Origin: Serpentinimonas maccroryi
GTDB lineage: Bacteria > Pseudomonadota > Gammaproteobacteria > Burkholderiales > Burkholderiaceae_C
Assembly: GCF_000828915.1 (NCBI RefSeq)
Contig: NZ_AP014569.1
Location: 1,798,001 to 1,862,000 of the forward strand
Length of the DNA: 64,000 bases
Reading direction: 5' to 3'
This document shows, piece by piece, positions 35,042 to 46,824 of this stretch. Every line of letters begins with the position of its first letter. The stretch's first letter is position 1. The position numbers and the translations under genes were made by a program. The notes under the pieces are model-generated. The model worked only from the letters and a program-made list of their open reading frames with translations. It had not been told where the DNA came from and did not search any database.

Positions 35042-35132
35042 GGAGAGATGGCAGAGTGGTCGAATGCGCCGGACTCGAAATCCGGTATACGGTTGTACCG
35101 TATCGAGGGTTCGAATCCCTCTCTCTCCGCCA
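35042..35132 (+). tRNA. tRNA-Ser, anticodon CGA
   Basis: The 91-base gene folds as a class II tRNA with an encoded CCA. The acceptor stem pairs GGAGAGA (35042-35048) with TCTCTCC (35122-35128), then discriminator G and CCA to 35132. The anticodon stem CCGGA/TCCGG encloses the loop CTCGAAA with anticodon CGA (35076-35078), reading UCG codons. A long variable arm with TACGG/CCGTA pairing is typical of serine tRNAs. The T arm GAGGGTTCGAATCCCTC is standard. The gene is followed by a terminator and then the accessory methylase cassette. Confidence 0.97.
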
Positions 35133-35177
35133 CAACCAACCCTTCAAACCTGCTCAGCCAGCCTAGAAGGCGTACAG

Positions 35178-35202
35178 AGCCCCGCAGCACGCGGGGCTTT
35201 TT
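35178..35202 (+). terminator. Rho-independent terminator after tRNA-Ser
   Basis: A 7-bp GC stem, GCCCCGC (35179-35185) with GCGGGGC (35191-35197), plus an A-T pair outside it, has a 5-base loop (AGCAC) and is followed by TTTTTG. It ends about 50 bases after the tRNA and would stop the tRNA-Ser transcript before the accessory region. Between it and 35382 (about 180 bases) I see no gene. Confidence 0.85.
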
Positions 35203-35382
35203 GCTATGGGCTCCTGACTGACCCCATGGCCACCCACCCTCGAAACTCGTCTCAAACCCCGTTTCGTCTCAGAACCTCCTGACTTTTCTCAGGGCGGTAC
35301 GGCGCTAGGGGTCTAGAGACCGGTGAGGCCTTCCGTGTGGAATCGCACCAGTCGCCGATGGAGAACCCGCTGACGACCCCGC

Positions 35383-38106
35383 TCAGATCCCATCCGCGGC
35401 ACGGGTCAGCGCGAGGTCATAGAGAGTGAGCAGCTTCTCGTCCTCTTGTAGCGTATCCTCAGGCAGCTTGTTGGCGATGCCGATGATGGTCTTGTAGTCC
35501 TTGGCGGCCCAGGCAGCGCGGAAACCAGCACGCAGGACCTCCAAACGCGACTCCTTAATCTTGCGACCTGTGAAGGTCTTGTATGTTTCAAATTCTTTAA
35601 GTAGCGATTTTTCCCGCTTTTTTTCAAGATCCTGCGCCTTGTTGAAGTCTGGTACATACCAACGGTTCTTCGCCTTATGCAGCAACGATGGATTTGACTT
35701 ATCAAGCCCGCGCATATCTTTGAAAATACTTGAAAGATAGATATGGATTGGCGATGGACATTCGCCGAAGCCATCAAACTCAATAAAGTTATCCTCAAGA
35801 AGACGCTGAAGCTCTGGTTTTGATTCGTGCTTTTTCCAGCCTGCACCGAGTTGCGCCGTAAATTCTGGATATATCTCTTGATAGGTTGAAGGGTTTGATT
35901 TAAGGAAGTTAGTCAGCCATTCAATCGCGCTTCTTTCATCAGAGACAAAAAGCTCCATTTGTGGAGCCGTAGAAACAGACGCACGCCTCTTGTCATACTC
36001 CTTTGCTTGATCTGGCAAAAAAATCATGCCATCTCTCTCTAGAAATTTCTCAACAAGTCCCGCACGGAACTCCTGATGTGACAAAGGAACATATACGTTT
36101 TGCCTAATAAACCACCCGACCATCCGATCAAATAAAACCCGTGGATCTCTTTCTGAGATGTAATTAATAAGGCCGTCGCGCTCCTTAATTATCGGTATAT
36201 GCTTGAGGTGCTCTTTTACAAAATCCCAAACAGACTGGCTGATTTGTGAATTGAGGACACAGCTTCTGATCAGCGACTCTATTGGCTTATATGCAGTAAT
36301 GGCCAAGTCTTTGTTCACAGCTGCAGCCTTATGATCCTGATGGAGTGTTGTCTGTATCTTGTCAAGCAATGCAACATTGGCCACAATTAGGCCAGACTTT
36401 TCAAGGGCGTGCTGTATGGCATGCCAAACGGTGTTGGATGAATTATGGAACTCGACGACGATATAACGACCCGGCTTCAAAACACGTGCATATTCAGAAA
36501 AGACAAGAGTCAATAAATGAGTGTATTCTTGAATTCTCTTTTTTTGCACCGAGTTGGTTATGGCCTCAGCCTGGTTGTTGGTTTTAATTCCAAGCCACCA
36601 TTCGTAGAGAATGTTCTGCTCAGAATAGTTAATATTCCCCCCGAATGGGGGGTCTGTAAAGATAAAATCTATACTTGCATCTGGTATTTGCGCAAGGTTT
36701 GTTGCGCTTTGGTTTGATACGATCGACCTGGTCTTTGGCCATGATGAGTGCACTTTTTGCAAACTCTCAAGCACCTGAAGCATTTTTCTCCCAATGTTTG
36801 TTTCGGTTTGCAATGTTGGAACGTATAACGTGTTGGACAACGGACCAATAGGGGAGCCATTAGGGCGCCGCTTGTCAATATAGAACCGATTGCGGCGAGT
36901 GGCATTATTTTCCATAATCGTCAACGCGCAAAATAAAGCAGCCCGCCTTAACTGCGCATCCTTGATGCCTGCTATTCTGGCCAAGGAATAATAGTTTCGC
37001 CTTGTATAGAAGTGATGAATGTGGGTGATCCCCCAGTATTCGGGTAAGTTGTTCCTTTCATGGGTCATGTGCGTATATTCTAGTTTGGCCGGAACCAGAG
37101 AAACCACCCGGCTGCCAACTTCCTCATAGTGCCTGACGTCTAGCTCAGTAGGTTTTGTGCGGATTGCACGATTTCCTACCTTTTTTGAAATCAACACCAT
37201 GGATGTCTTGGCAAGACGGGTTGTGTCGTTGATCCATGGATCAAATACGGCCTCAAAGCTCTTTTTGGCCGACTCCGATTTGATGATTGCGCCGCAATGA
37301 GGACAAGGATACTCACTTAAAATGCACGGTTTTTTGGTATCAATAATGACGTCATACAACAAAAAACTGCCACCGCAGTTTGCGCATTCGCCCCAGTCCG
37401 AAAATACTGCGTAATCAAAGTGATCTACCGCATTTCCGCTCTTGAATGTATATAGCGGAAGAATCTCTTTTTTGATGAATTCGCCTAGAACACCGCTGAC
37501 CCCACTAGACAAATGCTCATCAAGGGGGGAGTTCATTATTGATGCTATGAATGCTGCCGCTGGCGACAGATCCACCAGAATCGCTCGGCGCGCGCCTTTT
37601 TCGTAAACAGAAAATCTGTCAGTTAAGTCTCTGCCAGGGTTTGCGCAGTTTGCCGCTGCCACACCTGTCATGCCTGTGCCGCAGAATGCATCCAGAACCA
37701 GATCGCCGGGTTTTGTGTAATGGAGCAAGTAGTTCTGAATGGCCTTTGGCGGGACTTTGGTATGGTAAGACGGAACTGCATACAGCGGATCATTCTTGCC
37801 CTCAACGACATCCAAAGAGAATGGCGTGACATCGTATTTCGATGCTTCAATTATTGGCTTGCCATAAAACTCAATAAAATCTTTTATGAATGGGTTCGGG
37901 CAGGCGGTGTAATACGGGGGGTCTGATAGAGCCAGTATGGCCTCATCTGATCCTACTGGGAATCCTTCTATTCCCCTAAATGTCGGGTCTTTTAGTCTCT
38001 CAGCCAGAATCTCGAGATAAAAGTCCCTTCTTGCTTCTTCGCTGGGGAATTTTTTTCCTAGGCATTCAATCGATCCAATGGTTTTTTCATTAAAAATTTC
38101 AGTCAC
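35383..38106 (-). CDS. DNA methyltransferase with two DPP motifs and a zinc ribbon
   Basis: This 907-residue protein is a class I (N6-adenine or N4-cytosine) DNA methyltransferase by its motifs. The order is SDPPYYTACPNPF at 61-73 (motif IV-like), the SAM-binding LDAFCGTGMTGVAA at 138-151, a zinc ribbon (Cys241, Cys244, Cys268, Cys271), and a second motif IV, TDPPFGGNINYSE, at about 484-496 followed by YARVLKPGRYIVVEFHN. It continues about 350 residues as a possible target-recognition or helical domain. The start is GTG 38106, overlapping the upstream stop (GTGA) with a GGGAG Shine-Dalgarno. Most of the gene is AT-rich, but the last 190 or so bases are GC-rich. It is presumably the modification enzyme of the three-gene cassette. 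Target sequence and base are unknown. Confidence 0.88.
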   Translation of the reverse strand: MTEIFNEKTIGSIECLGKKFPSEEARRDFYLEILAERLKDPTFRGIEGFPVGSDEAILALSDPPYYTACPNPFIKDFIEFYGKPIIEASKYDVTPFSLDVVEGKNDPLYAVPSYHTKVPPKAIQNYLLHYTKPGDLVLDAFCGTGMTGVAAANCANPGRDLTDRFSVYEKGARRAILVDLSPAAAFIASIMNSPLDEHLSSGVSGVLGEFIKKEILPLYTFKSGNAVDHFDYAVFSDWGECANCGGSFLLYDVIIDTKKPCILSEYPCPHCGAIIKSESAKKSFEAVFDPWINDTTRLAKTSMVLISKKVGNRAIRTKPTELDVRHYEEVGSRVVSLVPAKLEYTHMTHERNNLPEYWGITHIHHFYTRRNYYSLARIAGIKDAQLRRAALFCALTIMENNATRRNRFYIDKRRPNGSPIGPLSNTLYVPTLQTETNIGRKMLQVLESLQKVHSSWPKTRSIVSNQSATNLAQIPDASIDFIFTDPPFGGNINYSEQNILYEWWLGIKTNNQAEAITNSVQKKRIQEYTHLLTLVFSEYARVLKPGRYIVVEFHNSSNTVWHAIQHALEKSGLIVANVALLDKIQTTLHQDHKAAAVNKDLAITAYKPIESLIRSCVLNSQISQSVWDFVKEHLKHIPIIKERDGLINYISERDPRVLFDRMVGWFIRQNVYVPLSHQEFRAGLVEKFLERDGMIFLPDQAKEYDKRRASVSTAPQMELFVSDERSAIEWLTNFLKSNPSTYQEIYPEFTAQLGAGWKKHESKPELQRLLEDNFIEFDGFGECPSPIHIYLSSIFKDMRGLDKSNPSLLHKAKNRWYVPDFNKAQDLEKKREKSLLKEFETYKTFTGRKIKESRLEVLRAGFRAAWAAKDYKTIIGIANKLPEDTLQEDEKLLTLYDLALTRAADGI

Positions 38107-38843
38107 TCCTTCGCTCCCAACCGCTGAAGCCAGGAAATATCATCAAATGAAGCATAACTTACGATTGGAATAACGTGAGCTGGCTTGTTGAAAATATTGG
38201 CTGTGGGTGACGCCATTATTTCACCTCTGGTTATGCAGCCGAGGATTGCCACTGCTCCTGTTGAGGAATCCACGCCGATTTGAATTAACAGCTCCGGATA
38301 TGAAAGTACACGCAATGACTCGCCGTCCAGCATTTTTGCTGGATAGTAAGAGGTTCCACGCCGAATAATATCAAGGTATGAACGTTTGGCTGCAGTCTTG
38401 ATTCCTACACTTTTTCTGTTTATGGTGAGGTCTTGCCTAAATTCGCTTTTGGAGGCCACCACGACAGGCGCACCAGAAAACTTGATTTGCTTAGATTGCA
38501 GATATTTTGATAGAGCCATCTCGCCGGCTTGGCCTATTGAATGCGCAAGTTGGCTTGGTAGCCCGGAGTGCCGATATTTCCATCCCATCACTTTTTCATT
38601 GAACCACGTTCTAACGGTTCCGACGGCGAAGGCATATTTGAGCTCAGCCAACGTGAGCTCAATCGTCAGTCCGTGTGGAGAAATCAAATCATGCTTGTAT
38701 GAAATGTCTTCTTTCTGCTGCCTAGAAAGCCATGCTTCAGCCTCTGCAGTTAACTTTTGGAGGTTGATGGGCACTCGGTTTTGTCTGCATTTTTCCTCGA
38801 TCACAGGAAATTCGCTGAGCAGTTTGGTGATTGCTGTTTCCAT
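38103..38843 (-). CDS. Small protein with a PD-(D/E)XK-like nuclease signature
   Basis: I do not recognise a named family for this 246-residue protein. Residues about 112-175 look like a restriction-endonuclease fold: a helix with Glu (SIGQAGEMALSKYLQ), then FRQDLTINRKSVGIKTA, where Asp and the GIK lysine sit where PD-(D/E)XK enzymes have D and (E/Q)xK; here Gly replaces the usual Glu. The following PELLIQIGVDSSTGAVAILGCITRGEI resembles the strand-helix segment after the core of many such nucleases. It starts 14 bases after the ATPase stop with an AGGA site and overlaps the methylase by GTGA. The frame extends upstream inside the ATPase gene, but that is not coding. Most likely the effector of the cassette; the activity is an inference. 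Confidence 0.7.
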   Translation of the reverse strand: METAITKLLSEFPVIEEKCRQNRVPINLQKLTAEAEAWLSRQQKEDISYKHDLISPHGLTIELTLAELKYAFAVGTVRTWFNEKVMGWKYRHSGLPSQLAHSIGQAGEMALSKYLQSKQIKFSGAPVVVASKSEFRQDLTINRKSVGIKTAAKRSYLDIIRRGTSYYPAKMLDGESLRVLSYPELLIQIGVDSSTGAVAILGCITRGEIMASPTANIFNKPAHVIPIVSYASFDDISWLQRLGAKE

Positions 38844-38857
38844 TTCAGTCCTGACCT

Positions 38858-41800
38858 TTACTCGATGATGATGCGAAGCTTGATGGAGTCTTTTCCTTTG
38901 CAGAGATTGTTCATTAAAACATCGAAGCGCATGCGCAAATCGTCCGGCGTGGCCGGCAAACCACCCTGCAGCAGTGCCTGCTTGATTTCGTCGCCCTTGA
39001 CCTCGATCTTCTCCAACCCCGACAGCGCCTTCTGTGCGGCGTTGGCGAACTCGCTGGTCATCGGGGCCGGCAGCTGGCGCGAAGCCAGGAAGGCGTCGAT
39101 CAGCTTCTTGGATGCGGGCGGCATCAGGCGCAGGCTCTCCTGCGTGAACGGATCTTCTAGGCACTCCAGCAGGATCTGCTGCCAGTTGGCTAGCAACTGG
39201 TCCAAGTCGTTGTCGAGCTTGTGCAGGCGGTTGGCGGCAGGGATCAGCTCCAACGGCTCGGCAGACGGGCGGAACTGGCAGTGCGGGCATACCGCCGCGG
39301 TCATCAGCGTGGGCTCAGCCAGCGAGAAACAACTCTTCAGGCCGTTCAGCGACTCCTCGAAGGCGGTGAGCTGGCTGGTGGGCAGTAGCGACACGCCGGC
39401 CAGCAGGCGCAGCGCCAGCAGGCGGTCGTCGCGGCGCAGCGCGTTGCGGGTCTTGTCTTCGGCCACGCCCAGCCGCGCCTTGCTGTGGCTGGCGATGTAG
39501 GCGCTGATGTAGCCCTTCTTGAGCTGGTTGAGTATCTGCCGGCCATTACCCAAAATCAGGGCCGCGTGCTCGGTGGTGCGGTCTTGGCTGATCTGCTCGC
39601 AAATGGCCTTGCGGGCGGTCTCGGCCTGCTTCACCCAAGGGTGCTCGGCGGGCAACACCATCTCGCCCTGCAAGAGGTAGGACGCCGTGCTGCCCAGTTC
39701 CACCACCAGTTCGAGCAGACGCTCGACGGCGGCCAGGATCTCCAAATTCTTCTTCTGGCCGTACAGATCTTCCTGGGTGACGCGCAGATTCTTGAACTTA
39801 CCGACGGTGTTGTAGGGCGTGAGCGACTCGGCGAACTTCTTCAGCGCATCGAGCCGGGCGTACCAGTCTTTGGCTTGTTCTTCGTGCAGCAGATTCTGGC
39901 CCCAGAAGCCGAGCTTGCCTTGCTGCAGGTCGGATCCGGCCTTGAGCACGCGCGGCACCAGCGCGCTGACTGTCTGCTGCAGTTTGATGACCGGCTCCGT
40001 GTCCCCTTGGTTGGCTTTCTGAGCCAAGCCGGACGGCAGGCCAAACAACTCGAACAAGGCGCGCAGCACCGCGAGGTTGATCTCCTTGGACGCCTCGACG
40101 TGCTTGAACTGTTTCAGCTCTTCGATAGAGCGTTCGGCCAGTTGCGCCAGCTTGCTGGAATCGATCTTGTCGCCGTTGATCGACAGCACGATGTCGCCGG
40201 AGTAGACGAGGCTGCCCAGCACGGTGAGCAGCAGATCGGGTTCCAGCCGGCACTTGCTTGGCGCGAAATATTCAAGGTCAGACGTGCCCGACAGCAGCTC
40301 GCTGCGGTTGAGCACTTGGCCATGGCCCTTGGCCTTGAGGCGGTTGAGCACTTCCTGCGCGTAGCGGGACTTGGCCGGATCGACGCGGTCGCCATCGAGC
40401 AATTCCAGCGCATCGAGCACGGCGAGCGCATCTTTGGTGCGCGTGCCGCCAGCCAGCAACCTAAGCGCGTTGCCCACCAGTTGCTTGCGGTTGGCCTCGG
40501 TGACCGGCACCGTGAAGGTGGGGTATTCGGGCGCGATACAGGCAAAGTGCTGGCTCAGCACCAAGCCTGAGACGGTGTTGACCACGTCGCGAAAGTGGCG
40601 GCGTTCGTCCGCACCCAGCCGCGCCCGGTCGCGCGGCGACACGCCTTTGACCCACTCTTGTAGGTTCTTTTTCTTGCCTTGGTAGGTGACCTCAAAGGCG
40701 GTCAGCTGCTTTTCTTGCAGCCACTTGCTCATGGCGCGCAGGAAGTCCTGTGCCTTGGAGAGGTAGATGGCCTTGGCGCCGCCGCTGGCGGTGGAGGCCA
40801 GATCGAGTGCCGCCGCGTAGGATGACAGGTGCCGCTTGAGCTCGTCGTCCAGCCCGGTGAGGCGCAAGAACACCTCGTTTGGCAGGTTGTTGTCATCGAA
40901 CCTGCGTTTGGTGAACGGCTGGATAAAGTAAATGTAGAAGTCGCGCTCGGGCTGGGACGTGGGGCGATCGTTCGGCGCGCCGAAGAACAGGTAGCCGATG
41001 CGCTCGACACGCCGCTCCTGCCACTCGAGCGGGTACTGCCAGATCTGAAAGCCGGGGTAACGCAGGTCGTCGCTGCACTCCATCAGCGCCTTGACGGCGC
41101 TGTAGTAAGCGCGGCCCAACGCATCGGGCGCAAGGGCTTGGGCGCGTTGTTCAATCTGCGCGTCGTAGTCGATGTCCTTCTTGAGGTCGAGGTAGTACTG
41201 CTCGCCGGTGTTGCCGCCATGCGGCGCCTTGGTGATGAACTGGCCATTGACGGTCTTGATCACTTCGCGCATCACGGTCTGAACCATCGACAACAGGTTC
41301 TCGGCCGGATCGCCCGGCATGTCTTCCACGCTTGGTTGGAACAGGCACAGGGCGTCGCGCAGCTCGGCAGCGGTGGGGCCAATGGGCACGTGGATGTCGC
41401 CGCCCGTGGTCAGGCGGTGTACGGCCAGCGCGTTGATGACGCGCAGCGCCATGGCCTTGTAGGCTGGGCGCGTGAAGGCCTGCTGCACGCGTGACTCCAG
41501 CACTTCTGACACGCGCATCACTTCTTTGATGCTGGGGTCGGCGCGCAAGACCGAGTTGGCCTTGATGGTGTTCCAGAAGCTCTCGTAGCTGATGAACAGC
41601 GGCTGGTCGGCGGACACTTCCTGGTCGAGGATGGCCAGCATGGCGGCCTCGATGGTCTTGAGCGCGCCACGCTTCTCGGTGAATTGGATCTGCTCGAAGG
41701 TCTTAAGGTAATCCGGGTGCACCGGGAACAAGCGCACGTATTCGTCCATGCGCTCGTTCATGGAGCCGTAGAACTTGGCGAACGGTGTGAGGTATGCGCG

Positions 41801-42622
41801 GATCTTGTGCTGCTGGTCGGTCGTCTTCTTAAGCAGACGCGCAGAGACGACGAAGCTGAGGTCCTGGCGGTCGATGAAAATCTGCGTGTAGCGCTCGTTG
41901 ACGCGGTGCATGCTGTCGGCCACATGCTGGAAGCGCGCGCCGTCGAAGATGGCTTCCTGTACACCGGCCACGAAGCGGAACTTCAGGTGCTTGGTGACTT
42001 CGCCGATCTGCCGCAGGATGGCCAGATCCTGCACCAGCTCTTGGTCGCGACGGGACTGCAGGTACTCCAGGAACTCGTCGACCACCAGCAACACACCCTG
42101 GTCCGGGAATTTTTCGCCAAACGCGGCCATCATCTCCTCGAAGGAGTGCTTGTTGTTGAGCTCCTTGTCGGCGGTCGGGAAGGTGTAGTCAACGCCGATT
42201 TTTTCCAGGAAACGCTCAAGCTGCAGGGTGATGATCTGCCGCAGCGGCATCTGCAGCCCGCCCACCTCGATGCGCAGCACCTTGAAGCGCCCAGCGATAG
42301 GAGCCACCGCCTCGGCCACCTTGGGGTGGCGGATCATCGGCGCGTAGGCCGCATCCTCGGCCACCAGGGACAGCACCGACATCAAGTGCGACTTACCGGT
42401 GCCGTAGTTGCCGACGATCAGCACGCCCTTGTGATCGACGGAATCGTCGAAACTGAGTTGGGGCACCATGAGCTTGGAGATCCGCTCTGCCATGTCGTCG
42501 GAGATGACGTAGGTCGCGACGAGCTTCTTGGCCTCGTCAGGGCGTCCGGCATCGAGCAGCTGAATGACTGACTCGATCTGCTCGAACTGGATCAGATCTC
42601 TGTATTTCATGTTCTGGGCCAT
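38858..42622 (-). CDS. Large P-loop ATPase, BrxC/PglY-like (DUF6079 type)
   Basis: This 1254-residue protein has an N-terminal AAA-like ATPase: Walker A GNYGTGKSH (71-79) in the context HKGVLIVGNYGTGKSHLMSV, and Walker B GVLLVVDEFLEYL (176-188). The N-terminus (MKYRDLIQFEQIESVIQL, then ISDDMAERISKLMVPQL) is that of the DUF6079 family as I recall it, related to BrxC of BREX and PglY of Pgl systems. The rest is largely helical, with one CPHC near residue 1100 but no nuclease or helicase motif that I can see. A GGGAG site lies about 8 bases before the ATG at 42622. It is the first gene of the cassette and probably a motor or scaffold coordinating the nuclease-like and methylase proteins on DNA. 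Base composition is GC-rich except for the last 75 or so bases. Confidence 0.85.
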   Translation of the reverse strand: MAQNMKYRDLIQFEQIESVIQLLDAGRPDEAKKLVATYVISDDMAERISKLMVPQLSFDDSVDHKGVLIVGNYGTGKSHLMSVLSLVAEDAAYAPMIRHPKVAEAVAPIAGRFKVLRIEVGGLQMPLRQIITLQLERFLEKIGVDYTFPTADKELNNKHSFEEMMAAFGEKFPDQGVLLVVDEFLEYLQSRRDQELVQDLAILRQIGEVTKHLKFRFVAGVQEAIFDGARFQHVADSMHRVNERYTQIFIDRQDLSFVVSARLLKKTTDQQHKIRAYLTPFAKFYGSMNERMDEYVRLFPVHPDYLKTFEQIQFTEKRGALKTIEAAMLAILDQEVSADQPLFISYESFWNTIKANSVLRADPSIKEVMRVSEVLESRVQQAFTRPAYKAMALRVINALAVHRLTTGGDIHVPIGPTAAELRDALCLFQPSVEDMPGDPAENLLSMVQTVMREVIKTVNGQFITKAPHGGNTGEQYYLDLKKDIDYDAQIEQRAQALAPDALGRAYYSAVKALMECSDDLRYPGFQIWQYPLEWQERRVERIGYLFFGAPNDRPTSQPERDFYIYFIQPFTKRRFDDNNLPNEVFLRLTGLDDELKRHLSSYAAALDLASTASGGAKAIYLSKAQDFLRAMSKWLQEKQLTAFEVTYQGKKKNLQEWVKGVSPRDRARLGADERRHFRDVVNTVSGLVLSQHFACIAPEYPTFTVPVTEANRKQLVGNALRLLAGGTRTKDALAVLDALELLDGDRVDPAKSRYAQEVLNRLKAKGHGQVLNRSELLSGTSDLEYFAPSKCRLEPDLLLTVLGSLVYSGDIVLSINGDKIDSSKLAQLAERSIEELKQFKHVEASKEINLAVLRALFELFGLPSGLAQKANQGDTEPVIKLQQTVSALVPRVLKAGSDLQQGKLGFWGQNLLHEEQAKDWYARLDALKKFAESLTPYNTVGKFKNLRVTQEDLYGQKKNLEILAAVERLLELVVELGSTASYLLQGEMVLPAEHPWVKQAETARKAICEQISQDRTTEHAALILGNGRQILNQLKKGYISAYIASHSKARLGVAEDKTRNALRRDDRLLALRLLAGVSLLPTSQLTAFEESLNGLKSCFSLAEPTLMTAAVCPHCQFRPSAEPLELIPAANRLHKLDNDLDQLLANWQQILLECLEDPFTQESLRLMPPASKKLIDAFLASRQLPAPMTSEFANAAQKALSGLEKIEVKGDEIKQALLQGGLPATPDDLRMRFDVLMNNLCKGKDSIKLRIIIE

Positions 42623-42754
42623 AGGGCTCCCTCTTCCCCATTCTCTTTTTATCAGGTAGTCGGCGACTTGGCCCGATCGTTGTGATTCCGCTGGTGCCTA
42701 GACTTGATGCCATCGACATTGCCGTGGGGGTGTAACAGGCGAAAGGATAGTGCA

Positions 42755-42789
42755 AATCTTTCAAGCCTTGAATGAAGGATTGAAAGATT
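42755..42789. repeat. 10-bp inverted repeat upstream of the ATPase cassette
   Basis: AATCTTTCAA (42755-42764) and TTGAAAGATT (42780-42789) are perfect inverted arms with a 15-base spacer. The arms lie 133-167 bases upstream of the ATPase ATG. An operator for a regulator, or a hairpin, are both possible. Their AT content stands out in this GC-rich segment. Confidence 0.7.
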
Positions 42790-42804
42790 GTCGGCGGCCG
42801 CAAG

Positions 42805-42818
42805 GTGCGCTAGCGCAC
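42805..42818. repeat. 14-bp perfect palindrome
   Basis: GTGCGCTAGCGCAC is a perfect palindrome 15 bases beyond the inverted repeat at 42755-42789. It may be an operator or part of a REP-like element; nothing else in the sequence assigns it. Confidence 0.5.
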
Positions 42819-42955
42819 AGACGCGCGGGCAGCCCGGCTTTACATTGAGCGCAATGGCACCGGATGCGAACCCGGCCCGCCATGCGGAGCAGCCCTAGGG
42901 TAACTGAACCGCCGCGTTGCCCTAGCCCTCCATTGCTCCCTCCAAAAGGTATTTC

Positions 42956-43189
42956 ATGAACACGAACCCGCTCCTCGTTCCCCGTGGCTTGGCCACGGCC
43001 ATCGCACTGACCTTGGTCATAGGCCTGAGCGCCTGCGCCGGCATGTCGCGCCAAGACCAAAACACCGCCATCGGCGCGGGCGTGGGGGCCGTCGGTGGCG
43101 CCGTGCTCACCGGCGGCGGCACGCTCGGTACCTTGGGGGGCGCCGCCATCGGCGGTGTGATCGGCAGCCAAGTCGAACCCAGAAAATAA
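42956..43189 (+). CDS. OsmB-like lipoprotein with a glycine zipper
   Basis: The 77-residue protein starts with a lipoprotein signal peptide (hydrophobic LATAIALTLVIGLSACAG; lipobox LSAC, acylated Cys27). The mature part is a glycine-zipper repeat (AIGAGVGAVGGAVLTGGG then LGTLGGAAIGGVIGSQVEP), as in OsmB and Rick_17kDa-type outer membrane lipoproteins. The AAAAGG site 7 bases before the ATG is good. OsmB-type proteins are induced by osmotic or stationary-phase stress; regulation here is inferred only from family. The next small gene lies 57 bases downstream. Confidence 0.9.
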   Translation: MNTNPLLVPRGLATAIALTLVIGLSACAGMSRQDQNTAIGAGVGAVGGAVLTGGGTLGTLGGAAIGGVIGSQVEPRK

Positions 43190-43246
43190 ACGGCCGCGCG
43201 CCAGCATCACCCCGCACAACCAAAAACCCCCAACCAAGGCCTCACC

Positions 43247-43396
43247 ATGCTCTACACCATTGCGCTCGTGCTGCTCATCCTCTGGCTGCTGGGCATGGTC
43301 ACATCGACCGTGCTGGGCGGTCTCATCCACGTCTTGCTGGTGATCGCCTTGGTGGTGGTGCTGCTGCGCGTGATCAGCGGACGCCGCCCGCTCTGA
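43247..43396 (+). CDS. Lmo0937-like small hydrophobic peptide
   Basis: This 49-residue peptide (MLYTIALVLLILWLLGM at the start, VLLRVISGRRPL at the end) has two predicted membrane helices separated by a short VTSTVLGG turn. The pattern MLxTIAxxLxxLWLLG, then GGxIHxLLVIAxVxxLxRxI is that of the Lmo0937 family of stress-associated small membrane proteins. It lies between the OsmB-like gene and the histidine kinase, a pairing common among stress-gene clusters. Function is unknown. Confidence 0.85.
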   Translation: MLYTIALVLLILWLLGMVTSTVLGGLIHVLLVIALVVVLLRVISGRRPL

Positions 43397-43436
43397 CGCC
43401 ATCCGTCCACGGGGCGGCCAACACCAGCACACCACG

Positions 43437-45119
43437 ATGCCACAGACCCCGGGGTGGACCCCCAAGCGCCGCCAACGCAACGCGCTGCTCAAGGCCGGCG
43501 CGCTGCAGAACGCCATTCTCACCAGCGCCAATTTTTCGATCATCGCGACCGACGAAAAGGGCATCATCCAGCTCTTCAACGTGGGGGCCGAGCGCATGCT
43601 GGGCTACCGCGCCGTCGAGGTGGTCAACCGGGTGCGCCCGAGCGACATGCACGACCCGCAAGAAGTGCGGGTGCGTGCCATGGCGCTCAGCTTGGAGCTC
43701 GACACACCGATCGCGCCGGGCTTCGAGGCGCTGGCCTTCAAGGCCTCGCGCGGCATCGAAGACGTCTACGAGCTTACCTACATCTGCAAAGACGGCAGCC
43801 GCTTCCCGGCGATCGTCTCCATCACCGCGCTGCGCGACGACTACGGCGATCTGATTGGCTACCTGCTGATCGGCTCCGACAACTCGGTGCGCAAGCGCGG
43901 CGAGCTGCAGCTCAACGAGGCCATGGCCGCGGCCGAGCAGGCCAACCGCGCCAAGACCGATTTCATCTCCAGCATGAGCCACGAGCTGCGCACACCGCTC
44001 AACGCCATCCTCGGTTTTGCGCAGCTGCTCGAATCGGGCACGCCCCTGCCCACGCCGACTCAAAAGCGCAGCATCGAGCAGATCCTCAAAGCCGGCTGGT
44101 ACCTGCTCGAGCTGATCAACGAAATCCTGGACCTCGCGCTCATCGAGAGCGGCAAGCTCACGCTGTCGGGCGAGCCGGTGTCGCTGACCGAGGTGCTGGC
44201 CGAATGCCGGGCCATGGTGGAGCCGCAGGCGCAGCAGCGCGGCATCGGCATGGTCTTTGCCCGGCTGGAGCAGCCGCGCTGCGTGAAGGCCGACCGCACG
44301 CGGCTCAAGCAGGTGCTCATCAACCTGTTGTTCAACGCCATCAAATACAACCAGCCGGGCGGCCACGTGACGGTGGAGTGCACGCTCGCCACACCCGAGA
44401 CGATCCGCATCAGCGTGCGCGACACCGGCCCGGGGCTCTCGGCCGCGCAGCAGGCGCAGCTGTTCCAGCCGTTCAACCGGCTCGGGCAGGAGAACGGTGA
44501 CGTAGAGGGCACCGGCATCGGCCTGGTGGTGACGCAGCGCCTGGTGCACCTGATGGGTGGCCAGATCGGTGTGGACAGCACACCCGGCGTGGGCAGCGTG
44601 TTCTGGGTTCAGATGGCGCTCACCGCCGCACCGTTGCGCGCCCCCACAGACGGCGACACCCCCCGCGCCGACCCGCTGCGCCCCGATGCACCGCAGGCCC
44701 CCCCCCTGCACACCCTGTTGTACGTCGAAGACAACCCAGCCAACTTGGAGTTGGTGGAGCTGATCATTGGCCGGCGCGCCGACCTGCGCTTGCTCGGCGC
44801 GGCCGACGCCAGCTTGGGCATCGAGTTCGCCCGCGTCTACCAGCCCGCGGTGATCCTGATGGACATCAACCTGCCCGGTATCAGCGGGATCGAGGCCATG
44901 AAAATCTTGCGCGCCGACCCGAGCACGGCGCACATCCCGATCATCGCGCTGAGCGCCAATGCCGTGCCGCGCGACATCCAGCGCGCCCTGGATGCGGGCT
45001 TCTTCAACTACCTCACCAAACCGATCAAGGTCAACCAGCTCATGGACGCGCTGGAGGCGGCCTTGGCCTGCTCGCCATCCAGCAGCGGCGACCCGGCCAC
45101 CCTACAGGAACCCGCATGA
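43437..45119 (+). CDS. Hybrid histidine kinase (PAS-HisKA-HATPase-REC)
   Basis: The 560-residue protein has no transmembrane segments, so it is a cytoplasmic sensor. In order: a PAS/PAC domain (about 20-150, SANFSIIATDEKGIIQLFN, then KDGSRFPAIVSITALRD), a HisKA domain with phospho-acceptor His182 in FISSMSHELRTPLNA, a HATPase domain (N box NLLFNAIKY, G1 DTGPGLS, G2 GTGIGL), and a receiver domain with Asp476 in VILMDINLPG and Lys in LTKPI. The PAS ligand is unknown. The stop overlaps the start of the next response regulator gene by ATGA, so the two form a pair. No good Shine-Dalgarno is visible before the ATG. Confidence 0.95.
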   Translation: MPQTPGWTPKRRQRNALLKAGALQNAILTSANFSIIATDEKGIIQLFNVGAERMLGYRAVEVVNRVRPSDMHDPQEVRVRAMALSLELDTPIAPGFEALAFKASRGIEDVYELTYICKDGSRFPAIVSITALRDDYGDLIGYLLIGSDNSVRKRGELQLNEAMAAAEQANRAKTDFISSMSHELRTPLNAILGFAQLLESGTPLPTPTQKRSIEQILKAGWYLLELINEILDLALIESGKLTLSGEPVSLTEVLAECRAMVEPQAQQRGIGMVFARLEQPRCVKADRTRLKQVLINLLFNAIKYNQPGGHVTVECTLATPETIRISVRDTGPGLSAAQQAQLFQPFNRLGQENGDVEGTGIGLVVTQRLVHLMGGQIGVDSTPGVGSVFWVQMALTAAPLRAPTDGDTPRADPLRPDAPQAPPLHTLLYVEDNPANLELVELIIGRRADLRLLGAADASLGIEFARVYQPAVILMDINLPGISGIEAMKILRADPSTAHIPIIALSANAVPRDIQRALDAGFFNYLTKPIKVNQLMDALEAALACSPSSSGDPATLQEPA

Positions 45120-45949
45120 CCCTCAGCCCACAAGACATGCTCGACGCGCGCATCCTGATCGTGGACGACCAGCCCGCCAACGTGGCGCTGCTCCATGAGC
45201 TGCTGCACGGCGTGGGCTACAGCCAGGTGTTCAGCACCATGGACCCCACGGCCGTGGCCGCGCTGCACCGCGAGGCGCCGTTCGACCTGATCCTGCTGGA
45301 CCTGCAGATGCCCGGCATGGACGGCTTCCAAGTGATGGAGGCGCTGAAGGCGGGCACCGCCGAGGGCGACTACCTCTCGGTGCTGGTGATCACCGCACAG
45401 CCGGGCCACAAGCTGCGCGCCCTGCAAGCTGGGGCCAAAGACTTCGTGAGCAAGCCCTTCGACTTGGTCGAGGTGCAGACGCGCATCCGCAACCTGATCG
45501 AAGTGCGCCTGCTGCACCGCCAACTGGCGCAACACAACCTGGTCTTGGAGCAACGGGTGCAGCAGCGCACCGCCGAACTGCTCGAGAGCGAAGCGCGCTA
45601 CCGTGCCCTGACCGAGCTCGCCACCGACTGGCACTGGGAGCAAGACGGCGAGGGCCGTTTCACCCAAGTATCCGGCCCGGTGCTGGAGATGCTGGGACTG
45701 CAAGACTCGGTGTTGGCCGACGGTGCGTCACCGACGGCCAGCGCCGGCTGGAACGAGGCCGAGCGCCAAAAGCTGCTGGACCGCATCGCCGCCCGCAGCC
45801 CCTTCCTAGACATGGTGCTCAACCAGTCGCTGCCCGACGGCACCACCCGCCAGTACCGCGTGAGCGGCACGCCGGTGTTCGACACCCGCTGCACCCTCAC
45901 CGGCTACCGGGGTTTCGGCGTCGAGGTGCTCACGCTGCCGAAGGTCTGA
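45116..45949 (+). CDS. Response regulator with a C-terminal PAS domain
   Basis: The 277-residue protein has an N-terminal receiver domain with the acidic pair in ILIVDDQPANV, phospho-acceptor Asp62 (LILLDLQMPGMDG) and Lys in VSKPFDLVEV. A coiled-coil-like linker (LLHRQLAQHNLVLEQRVQQR) leads to a PAS domain (YRALTELATDWHWEQDGEGRF). There is no DNA-binding, GGDEF, EAL or kinase domain, so the output is presumably by protein contact. This arrangement resembles the front half of REC-PAS-GGDEF proteins; the gene may be a trimmed form. It overlaps the hybrid kinase by ATGA. Confidence 0.93.
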   Translation: MTLSPQDMLDARILIVDDQPANVALLHELLHGVGYSQVFSTMDPTAVAALHREAPFDLILLDLQMPGMDGFQVMEALKAGTAEGDYLSVLVITAQPGHKLRALQAGAKDFVSKPFDLVEVQTRIRNLIEVRLLHRQLAQHNLVLEQRVQQRTAELLESEARYRALTELATDWHWEQDGEGRFTQVSGPVLEMLGLQDSVLADGASPTASAGWNEAERQKLLDRIAARSPFLDMVLNQSLPDGTTRQYRVSGTPVFDTRCTLTGYRGFGVEVLTLPKV

Positions 45950-46048
45950 GGGGCTGATGGCTTGATCGCGGTGCATACTGCGCCTGCAGACCAAAAAGCC
46001 GCACCTTGGCGCCCCGGGCTTGAACCCCCCTATCGAGAGCACAGACAC

Positions 46049-46768
46049 ATGGGCATCCCTCCCGACCAAGCGGCCAACCAGTTGCTCGCCTCCATGCCCA
46101 TGCCCGAATGGCAGCGCATTGGCCCGCTGCTGGAGGTGGTCGATCTGCCGCTGGGCCGGGTGCTGTACGAATCGGGCAGCAAGATGGGGCACGTGTACTT
46201 CCCCATCGATGCCATCGTTTCGCTGCTGTACGTAATGGAAAACGGCGCCTCGGCCGAGATCGCGGTGGTGGGCAACGAAGGCCTGGTCGGCATCGCGCTG
46301 TTCATGGGCGGTGAAACCACACCCAGCCGCGCCGTGGTTCAAAGCGCTGGCAAGGGCTACCGTCTGCGCGCGGCCGACATCAAGGATGAATTCAACCGCG
46401 CCGGCCCGGTGCTGCACCTGCTGCTGCGCTACACCCAGGCGCTCATCACCCAGATGACGCAGACGGCGGCGTGCAACCGCCACCATGCGCTCGACCAGCA
46501 GCTCTGCCGCTGGCTGCTGCTGAGCTTGGACCGTCTGAGCGGCAACGAACTGGTGATGACGCACGAGCTCATTGCCAACATGCTGGGCGTGCGCCGCGAA
46601 GGCGTGACCGAAGCGGCGCTGAAGCTGCAGCGGCTTGGCATGATCCGCTACGCCCGCGGGCACATCACGGTGCTGGACCGAAAAGCGCTCGAAGGCCGCG
46701 TCTGCGAATGCTACGCCGTGGTCAAAAAAGAATACGAGCGCCTGCTGCCACCACGCCCAGCGGCTTGA
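46049..46768 (+). CDS. Crp/Fnr family transcriptional regulator
   Basis: The 239-residue protein has a cyclic-nucleotide-binding-like domain (about residues 20-125; PLLEVVDLPLGRVLYESGSKMGHVYFPIDAIVSLL) and a C-terminal winged helix (about 150-215; HALDQQLCRWLLLSLDRL, MTHELIANMLGVRREGVTEAALKLQRLGMIRYARG). The cAMP-contact residues of CRP are not clearly kept and there is no FNR-type cysteine cluster, so the signal is unknown. The start MGIPPDQAANQLL at 46049 fits; upstream frame is not conserved. It lies 99 bases after the response regulator and may act downstream of it. Confidence 0.92.
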   Translation: MGIPPDQAANQLLASMPMPEWQRIGPLLEVVDLPLGRVLYESGSKMGHVYFPIDAIVSLLYVMENGASAEIAVVGNEGLVGIALFMGGETTPSRAVVQSAGKGYRLRAADIKDEFNRAGPVLHLLLRYTQALITQMTQTAACNRHHALDQQLCRWLLLSLDRLSGNELVMTHELIANMLGVRREGVTEAALKLQRLGMIRYARGHITVLDRKALEGRVCECYAVVKKEYERLLPPRPAA

Positions 46769-46824
46769 GCGCGTGATCAGACTACGCGCTGACGCGCCTT
46801 GGGGGGCTGGCGCGATGACTCCCT

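Follow-up and report, generated by a model that had tools for sequence, protein, structure and literature searches.

Three adjacent genes in a 64,000-nucleotide stretch of the Serpentinimonas maccroryi genome (the window) raise the question of whether they make up a defence system in their own right or belong to one already described. A first-pass annotation, made from the letters alone, had seen in them a tight operon of a P-loop ATPase, a protein with a PD-(D/E)XK-like signature and a DNA methylase, related to BREX and Pgl systems but with PglZ, helicase and BrxA absent from the flanks, and had proposed that the set is either a minimal variant or an undescribed system.

The operon itself is as first described, in both coordinates and sequence. 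The genes run on the minus strand from 42622 to 35383 and encode proteins of 1254, 246 and 907 amino acids, all in intact frames, with 14 bases between the ATPase gene and the middle gene and a four-base overlap (GTGA) between the middle gene and the methylase gene. The features of the locus are as follows.

35042..35132, plus strand: tRNA-Ser (cga) gene at the edge of the inserted block, called by ARAGORN
35137..46824, unstranded: 11.7-kb block absent at the same site in two genomes of the same genus, from matches in G370 and G369
35321..35386, minus strand: stub left of the 5' end of brxHII, some 20 codons long and carrying substitutions, immediately behind pglXI, from DNA matches, tblastn and alignments
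35383..38106, minus strand: pglXI (brxXI), N6-adenine-type DNA methyltransferase gene with a four-Cys insert, 907 amino acids, GTG start, intact
35520..38860, edges approximate, unstranded: low-GC module (nuclease gene and most of pglXI) within a high-GC brxC/brxHII frame, from GC steps
38103..38843, minus strand: predicted PD-(D/E)XK-fold nuclease gene of an unnamed family in the brxC–pglXI cargo slot, 246 amino acids
38858..42622, minus strand: brxC, DUF6079 AAA+ ATPase gene, 1254 amino acids, intact
42623..42650, minus strand: the furthest that DNA homology to the 80 BREX-3 loci extends upstream from brxC, from DNA matches and alignment

The locus beside full BREX type 3 loci

The ATPase is matched by the Pfam model DUF6079 (1845.6 bits) and, over residues 5–1254, by the PADLOC BrxC model (1753 bits); it has a Walker A motif (GNYGTGKS) at residue 71 and VVDEF at 180, and it is up to 89% identical to BrxC proteins of BREX-3 loci. 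The methylase is matched by N6_N4_Mtase (65.4 bits) and, over residues 7–904, by the PADLOC PglXI model (1138.6 bits), with DPPY at 62, FCGTG at 141, DPPF at 485 and CxxC pairs at 241 and 268. It also contains the four-Cys TRD insert that PMC12839542 gives as a hallmark of PglXI/BrxXI. Judged by these matches, the ATPase is BrxC and the methylase is PglXI, both of BREX type 3, and the earlier placing of the two proteins near BREX and Pgl systems stands.

We searched genome contigs with an alignment built from five BrxC sequences; at least 312 relatives were confirmed, of which we kept the best 80 (L038–L117), 65–89% identical to the window BrxC; two of these 80 contigs stop before any methylase. 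Among these best 80 of at least 312, brxF precedes brxC in all 77 loci whose contigs extend 650 bases or more on that side, a brxHII match follows pglXI in all 52 with at least 2.5 kb downstream (51 of the matches being convincing), and pglZ follows brxHII in 47 of the 48 with at least 500 bases beyond brxHII. The exception is L091, from Novosphingobium sediminis, where the brxHII match is a weak fragment behind an IS481-like transposase and pglZ was not found within 6 kb. This second broken BREX-3 locus (L091:13761–17616) consists of a shortened pglXI, the transposase and a C-terminal helicase fragment.

In the window, DNA homology continues past the pglXI stop codon into the start of brxHII in comparisons with 15 loci; it reaches 35321–35322 in six of them and goes beyond 35321 in none. 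The stub so defined lies just outside the interval first annotated, which ended at 35383. It matches the L039 BrxHII at 12 of 16 residues (tblastn) and is without a tryptophan that is present in 61 of 62 loci, and the helicase reported as absent is represented by this stub of about 60 bases alone. At the other end, homology crosses the brxC start in 23 of the 80 loci and never passes 42650. Because homology to BREX-3 loci stops at most 28 bases upstream of brxC, brxF is missing; in a search within the window, no BrxF was found near brxC, the best match (E 0.073) lying elsewhere. In the same stretch the best BrxA match has an E value of 1.6, in keeping with the earlier report of its absence.

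The absence of PglZ, first noted for the flanks, extends to the whole source genome. Neither the PF08665 profile nor a type-3 PglZ protein query found a match there; the profile, which alone of the two had positive controls of its own, matched 2 of 14 control genomes. The L039 BrxHII returned only SNF2-type matches in the source genome (28–37%), whereas the L034 BrxHII recovers relatives in the 80 loci at 69–86%, L091 excepted. We accordingly rejected the idea that pglZ and brxHII had moved elsewhere in the genome. Two long open frames of 944 and 1221 residues in that genome (L147 and L148, at C1:252283-253938 and C1:2152444-2153373), with 32–37% similarity to SNF2-type helicases, are possibly other defence genes.

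We therefore class the locus as a derivative of BREX-3 that has been truncated and that includes a member of an unnamed nuclease-like family; it does not count as BREX-3 itself, because tests for several of the defining genes came out negative. The first reading was right about the BREX/Pgl relationship, the nuclease-like protein and the missing PglZ and helicase. As an undescribed system it is not our first choice, since brxC and pglXI recur within full BREX-3 loci and the brxHII stub directly follows pglXI. That reading had been staked on the three genes not occurring elsewhere solely within full BREX-type loci; this is largely where brxC and pglXI do occur, but the nuclease gene is in none of the 80 loci (best 80 of at least 312), it is likewise missing from seven additional stretches taken from six genomes, and a profile of the nuclease found zero matches among the cargo proteins of the 80 loci. 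The exact trio was therefore seen in one genome only, the source genome, across the 80 loci, the seven further stretches and samples of class, family and phylum genomes, and literature searches returned no published description of it.

Apparent module exchange and the insertion site

Base composition divides the cassette. The GC content drops from 61.9% in brxC to 46.6% and 45.9% in the nuclease gene and pglXI, respectively, and it returns to 63% at the pglXI 3' end and the stub; in 200-base steps it is 0.645 upstream, 0.415–0.535 within the module and 0.630 at 35321–35520. Across BREX-3 loci pglXI is generally lower in GC than brxC (median 6.3 points in the 65 loci with a full methylase), but the window difference of 0.160 exceeds the maximum of 0.131 in that set (median 0.063). 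Against loci with a BrxC identity of 84% or more, the window PglXI reaches about 47% identity over residues 1–862 (median, 20 pairs) and 78% over its last 45 residues; in four BREX-3 loci examined along the gene, identity climbs towards the last 100 or so residues. For 518 other locus pairs whose brxC identity is 84% or higher, the median identity is 0.60 for the PglXI body (263 of 518 below 0.60) and 0.80 for the last 45 residues, versus 0.86 for BrxHII and 0.79 for PglZ (pairs with both genes complete).

Divergence is thus much faster in pglXI than in brxC, brxHII and pglZ. These comparisons suggest that pglXI is swapped as a specificity module within a conserved BREX-3 frame, and accessory genes seem to be exchanged likewise. 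The brxC–pglXI gap is longer than 350 bases and filled in 51 of 78 loci, with known defence genes among its contents, and a further cargo slot lies between pglXI and brxHII. The cargo falls into 27 clusters; representatives of 20 were scanned, and 10 of the 20 have a Pfam match, including Schlafen AlbA_2, SIR2_2, HerA, AAA_21, DUF4276 and YhcG. PADLOC matches (6 of 10) include SIR2, HerA, HEC-01A/B, PD-T7-3 and PDC-S02. Recurrent cargo in L038–L117 comprises SIR2 with HerA, HEC-01A/B-like, PD-T7-3-like, Schlafen AlbA_2 and YhcG-type genes, as well as unnamed genes. Auxiliary effectors in BREX loci in general are described in PMC12839542.

The cassette lies in a block that two genomes of the same genus do not have at this site. 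In G370 the matches to window positions 35132 and 46825 are only 82 bases apart, and in G369 those to 35136 and 46917 are about 1.1 kb apart; in both, the empty site lies between tRNA-Ser and a methylmalonyl-CoA mutase gene. A search for a direct repeat linking both ends of the block found none. A 23-base inverted pair (35310–35332 and 43236–43258, 83%) has one arm close to each end of the fragment, in a list with nine other inverted pairs of similar strength. Promoter-like sites (6 versus 4.1 in shuffled sequence) and terminator-like sites (11 versus 9.4) are near expectation. A histidine kinase block at 43402–46749 adjoins the BREX fragment and, in G370, sits 68 kb from tRNA-Ser. The window tRNA-Ser matches L117:8702–8791 (82%), 0.7 kb upstream of brxF, and L081:4546–4636 (74%), 5 kb upstream; these are the 2 of 80 loci with a tRNA gene of the same kind beside BREX-3.

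The middle protein and its apparent ties to PglXI

The middle protein is matched by no Pfam (E ≤1), PADLOC (E ≤0.1) or NCBIfam (E ≤0.1) model. Its family is rare, with 12 homologues found. A PD-(D/E)XK fold is predicted for it, which agrees with the signature first noted, and the protein is a putative nuclease; E108, D138 and K149 are invariant in all 13 members, though the position two before the lysine is an invariant glycine, G147, rather than the acidic residue of (D/E)xK. Pfam searches with the 13 members gave nothing below E 0.085, with TPD touched by 2 of 13 (best E 0.16), and searching PDB sequences with a profile yielded a single uninformative match (E 1.1). No homologue was found in 72,556 plasmid records, 50,697 phage records or two viral-contig scans, and in overlapping samples of 369 class, 399 family and 369 phylum genomes the source genome alone had the gene. 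The archaeal Holliday junction resolvase Hjc and the other proteins compared with it, which we take to be PD-(D/E)XK enzymes, are only about 11% identical to the window protein; they differ from it in its extra N-terminal helical region and in the glycine.

The nuclease gene seems to travel with pglXI, as both are about 46% GC in a frame of about 62% and three other contigs seem to carry both genes. The latter were matched by eye through equal longest-contig sizes (4184, 6046 and 195154 bases), and the count is 3 of 12 nuclease clusters set against 120 of 7993 methylases listed. By the same measure, the pair stays linked at identities as low as 46% and 58%. The 120 BrxC rows listed include no contig equal in size to any of the 12 nuclease contigs. 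The pairing is nevertheless not obligatory: a Nitrosococcus watsonii PglXI (P0040) that is 90% identical to the nuclease-linked P0039 comes from a contig of 3,328,570 bases, and the longest contig of any nuclease cluster found is 195,154 bases. Among 379 genomes of the order, a search with the methylase (E ≤1e-50) matched seven, including the source; the best other near-full-length match is 49% identical.

Present state of the cassette and comparison with known systems

We think it quite probable that the cassette represents the central part of a BREX type 3 locus which, with brxF and pglZ absent and brxHII reduced to a stub, likely no longer works as a complete BREX. It would have begun as an intact brxF–brxC–pglXI–brxHII–pglZ–brxA locus, in which BrxC, BrxF and PglZ are predicted to have enabled PglXI to methylate the host's DNA at its site and to have stopped phage DNA lacking the mark. 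A low-GC module of the nuclease gene and most of pglXI would then have replaced the resident pglXI, changing methylation specificity and adding, between brxC and pglXI, an auxiliary effector that would act as an added cutter. Subsequently, brxF would have gone from one flank, and pglZ, brxA and almost the whole of brxHII from the other, to leave a 7.3-kb fragment beside tRNA-Ser. The gene identities, the stub, the absences, the GC mosaic and the empty site are observed; we infer the order of events, as we do the nuclease activity and the loss of function. In type I BREX, PglX requires BrxB, BrxC and PglZ according to PMC13326643, and BrxF is described as the type-3 homologue of BrxB in PMC12839542, so that by analogy the window fragment, now three intact proteins without partners reported as needed in type I, likely cannot run the BREX cycle. 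The remaining proteins could still methylate or cut DNA. As a counterpoint to a dead fragment, all three frames are intact with their catalytic motifs, while the stub has lost residues kept in its relatives, and thus the trio may have been preserved by something.

The history of BrxC bears on the same point. Its dN/dS has a median of 0.147 in pairs with the window protein (0.103–0.174, 20 pairs) versus 0.078 in 190 other pairs (0.027–0.150), from 20 hand-chosen loci of the 80, with pairs that are non-independent and ranges that overlap; the window values are far below 1. The window BrxC departs from the 42 others at 36 columns invariant among them, in a control where L065 departs at 67 columns and the other 41 at 0–8 and where some of the 42 are one protein from two sources. 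Two metagenomic BrxC proteins known from protein sequence alone (P0136 and P0137), each 97% identical to that of the window, share 27 of the 36 changes, so that this lineage extends beyond the window. All 27 lie outside the first 200 residues, a region with 125 of the 763 invariant columns, indicating that the ATPase core stayed constrained. The pattern is equally compatible with a relaxation of constraint once the partners were gone and with re-adaptation that kept the ATPase core. Elsewhere in the family, a BrxC frame in G199 (L006:1498–5790) is longer than other BrxC proteins by about 200 residues at the N terminus, a possible fusion.

Alternatively, the trio may still work as a restriction-modification derivative of BREX-3, with BrxC helping PglXI to mark the host's DNA while the nuclease takes over from PglZ and BrxHII and cuts unmarked DNA. 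We regard this as unlikely. The intact frames and motifs argue for it, as do the apparent recurrence of the nuclease–PglXI pair and the separate course taken by BrxC around an untouched core, and restriction endonucleases do replace PglZ in BREX-related (BR) types 1 and 2, according to PMC12839542. But the raised dN/dS fits decay equally, the exact trio occurs in no other genome searched, the nuclease has glycine for the acidic residue of (D/E)xK, and type I PglX is described as needing BrxB and PglZ (PMC13326643). Doubtful to a similar degree is a self-sufficient BrxC–nuclease–PglXI system carved from BREX-3, in which the compact nuclease replaced both PglZ and the helicase and BrxC was re-adapted outside its ATPase core.

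It is much less probable that the functional unit is the nuclease–PglXI pair, a type II-like restriction-modification system recombined into a BREX-3 frame with brxC as a passenger. Such a unit would account for the low GC common to the two genes beside a high-GC brxC and for linkage down to the identities given above. Moreover, in the P0008 contig the stretch of 80 codons that precedes the nuclease gene is unlike a brxC end (best 0.42 and 0.46 of positions compatible over six brxC ends, where shuffled sequence gives 0.42 at 95% and 0.50 at maximum and the window, as positive control, 1.0), although brxC may sit further upstream there. Yet the N. watsonii gene speaks against an obligatory pair, and every PglXI gene whose neighbours were inspected sits in a BREX-3 locus. 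An assembly artefact, with the truncation a misjoin, would explain why the arrangement is found in one genome only, but we give it hardly any weight: the assembly, which consists of 2 contigs, has a completeness rating of 100%, the decayed brxHII stub is a biological rather than an assembly signature, and PglZ is found nowhere else in the genome.

Understood as a BREX-3 remainder, an apparently new defence cassette is explained, and the locus suggests how BREX-3 changes, by exchange of pglXI and effector modules inside a brxC ... brxHII–pglZ frame. It also brings to light an unnamed family of nuclease-like proteins associated with one PglXI lineage. Were the trio active, it would rank as a remarkably compact system derived from BREX and offer a direct test of methylation by BrxC and PglXI without PglZ.

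Among known systems, BR types 1 and 2 likewise combine a BrxC-like ATPase, a PglX-like methylase and a restriction-type nuclease without PglZ; as described in PMC12839542, they have a DUF499 ATPase and a helicase to which the nuclease is mostly fused, whereas the window has a DUF6079 ATPase, a separate nuclease and no helicase. We rejected an assignment to BR because Pfam shows DUF6079 and not DUF499 and the helicase gene is absent at the locus. The BREX auxiliary or backup nucleases treated in the same paper are, like the middle gene, stand-alone PD-(D/E)XK genes within BREX operons; the window family differs in having no Pfam, PADLOC or NCBIfam model and in seeming tied to one PglXI lineage. 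From BREX type 3 the window differs in having no brxF, pglZ or brxA, a stub for brxHII, an unnamed nuclease gene between brxC and pglXI, and a PglXI body only about 47% identical (median, 20 pairs) to those of the loci that match its brxC. What it shares with BREX type 3 is a BrxC up to 89% identical, a PglXI of the family with the four-Cys insert, and the gene order, with the brxHII stub in the expected place.
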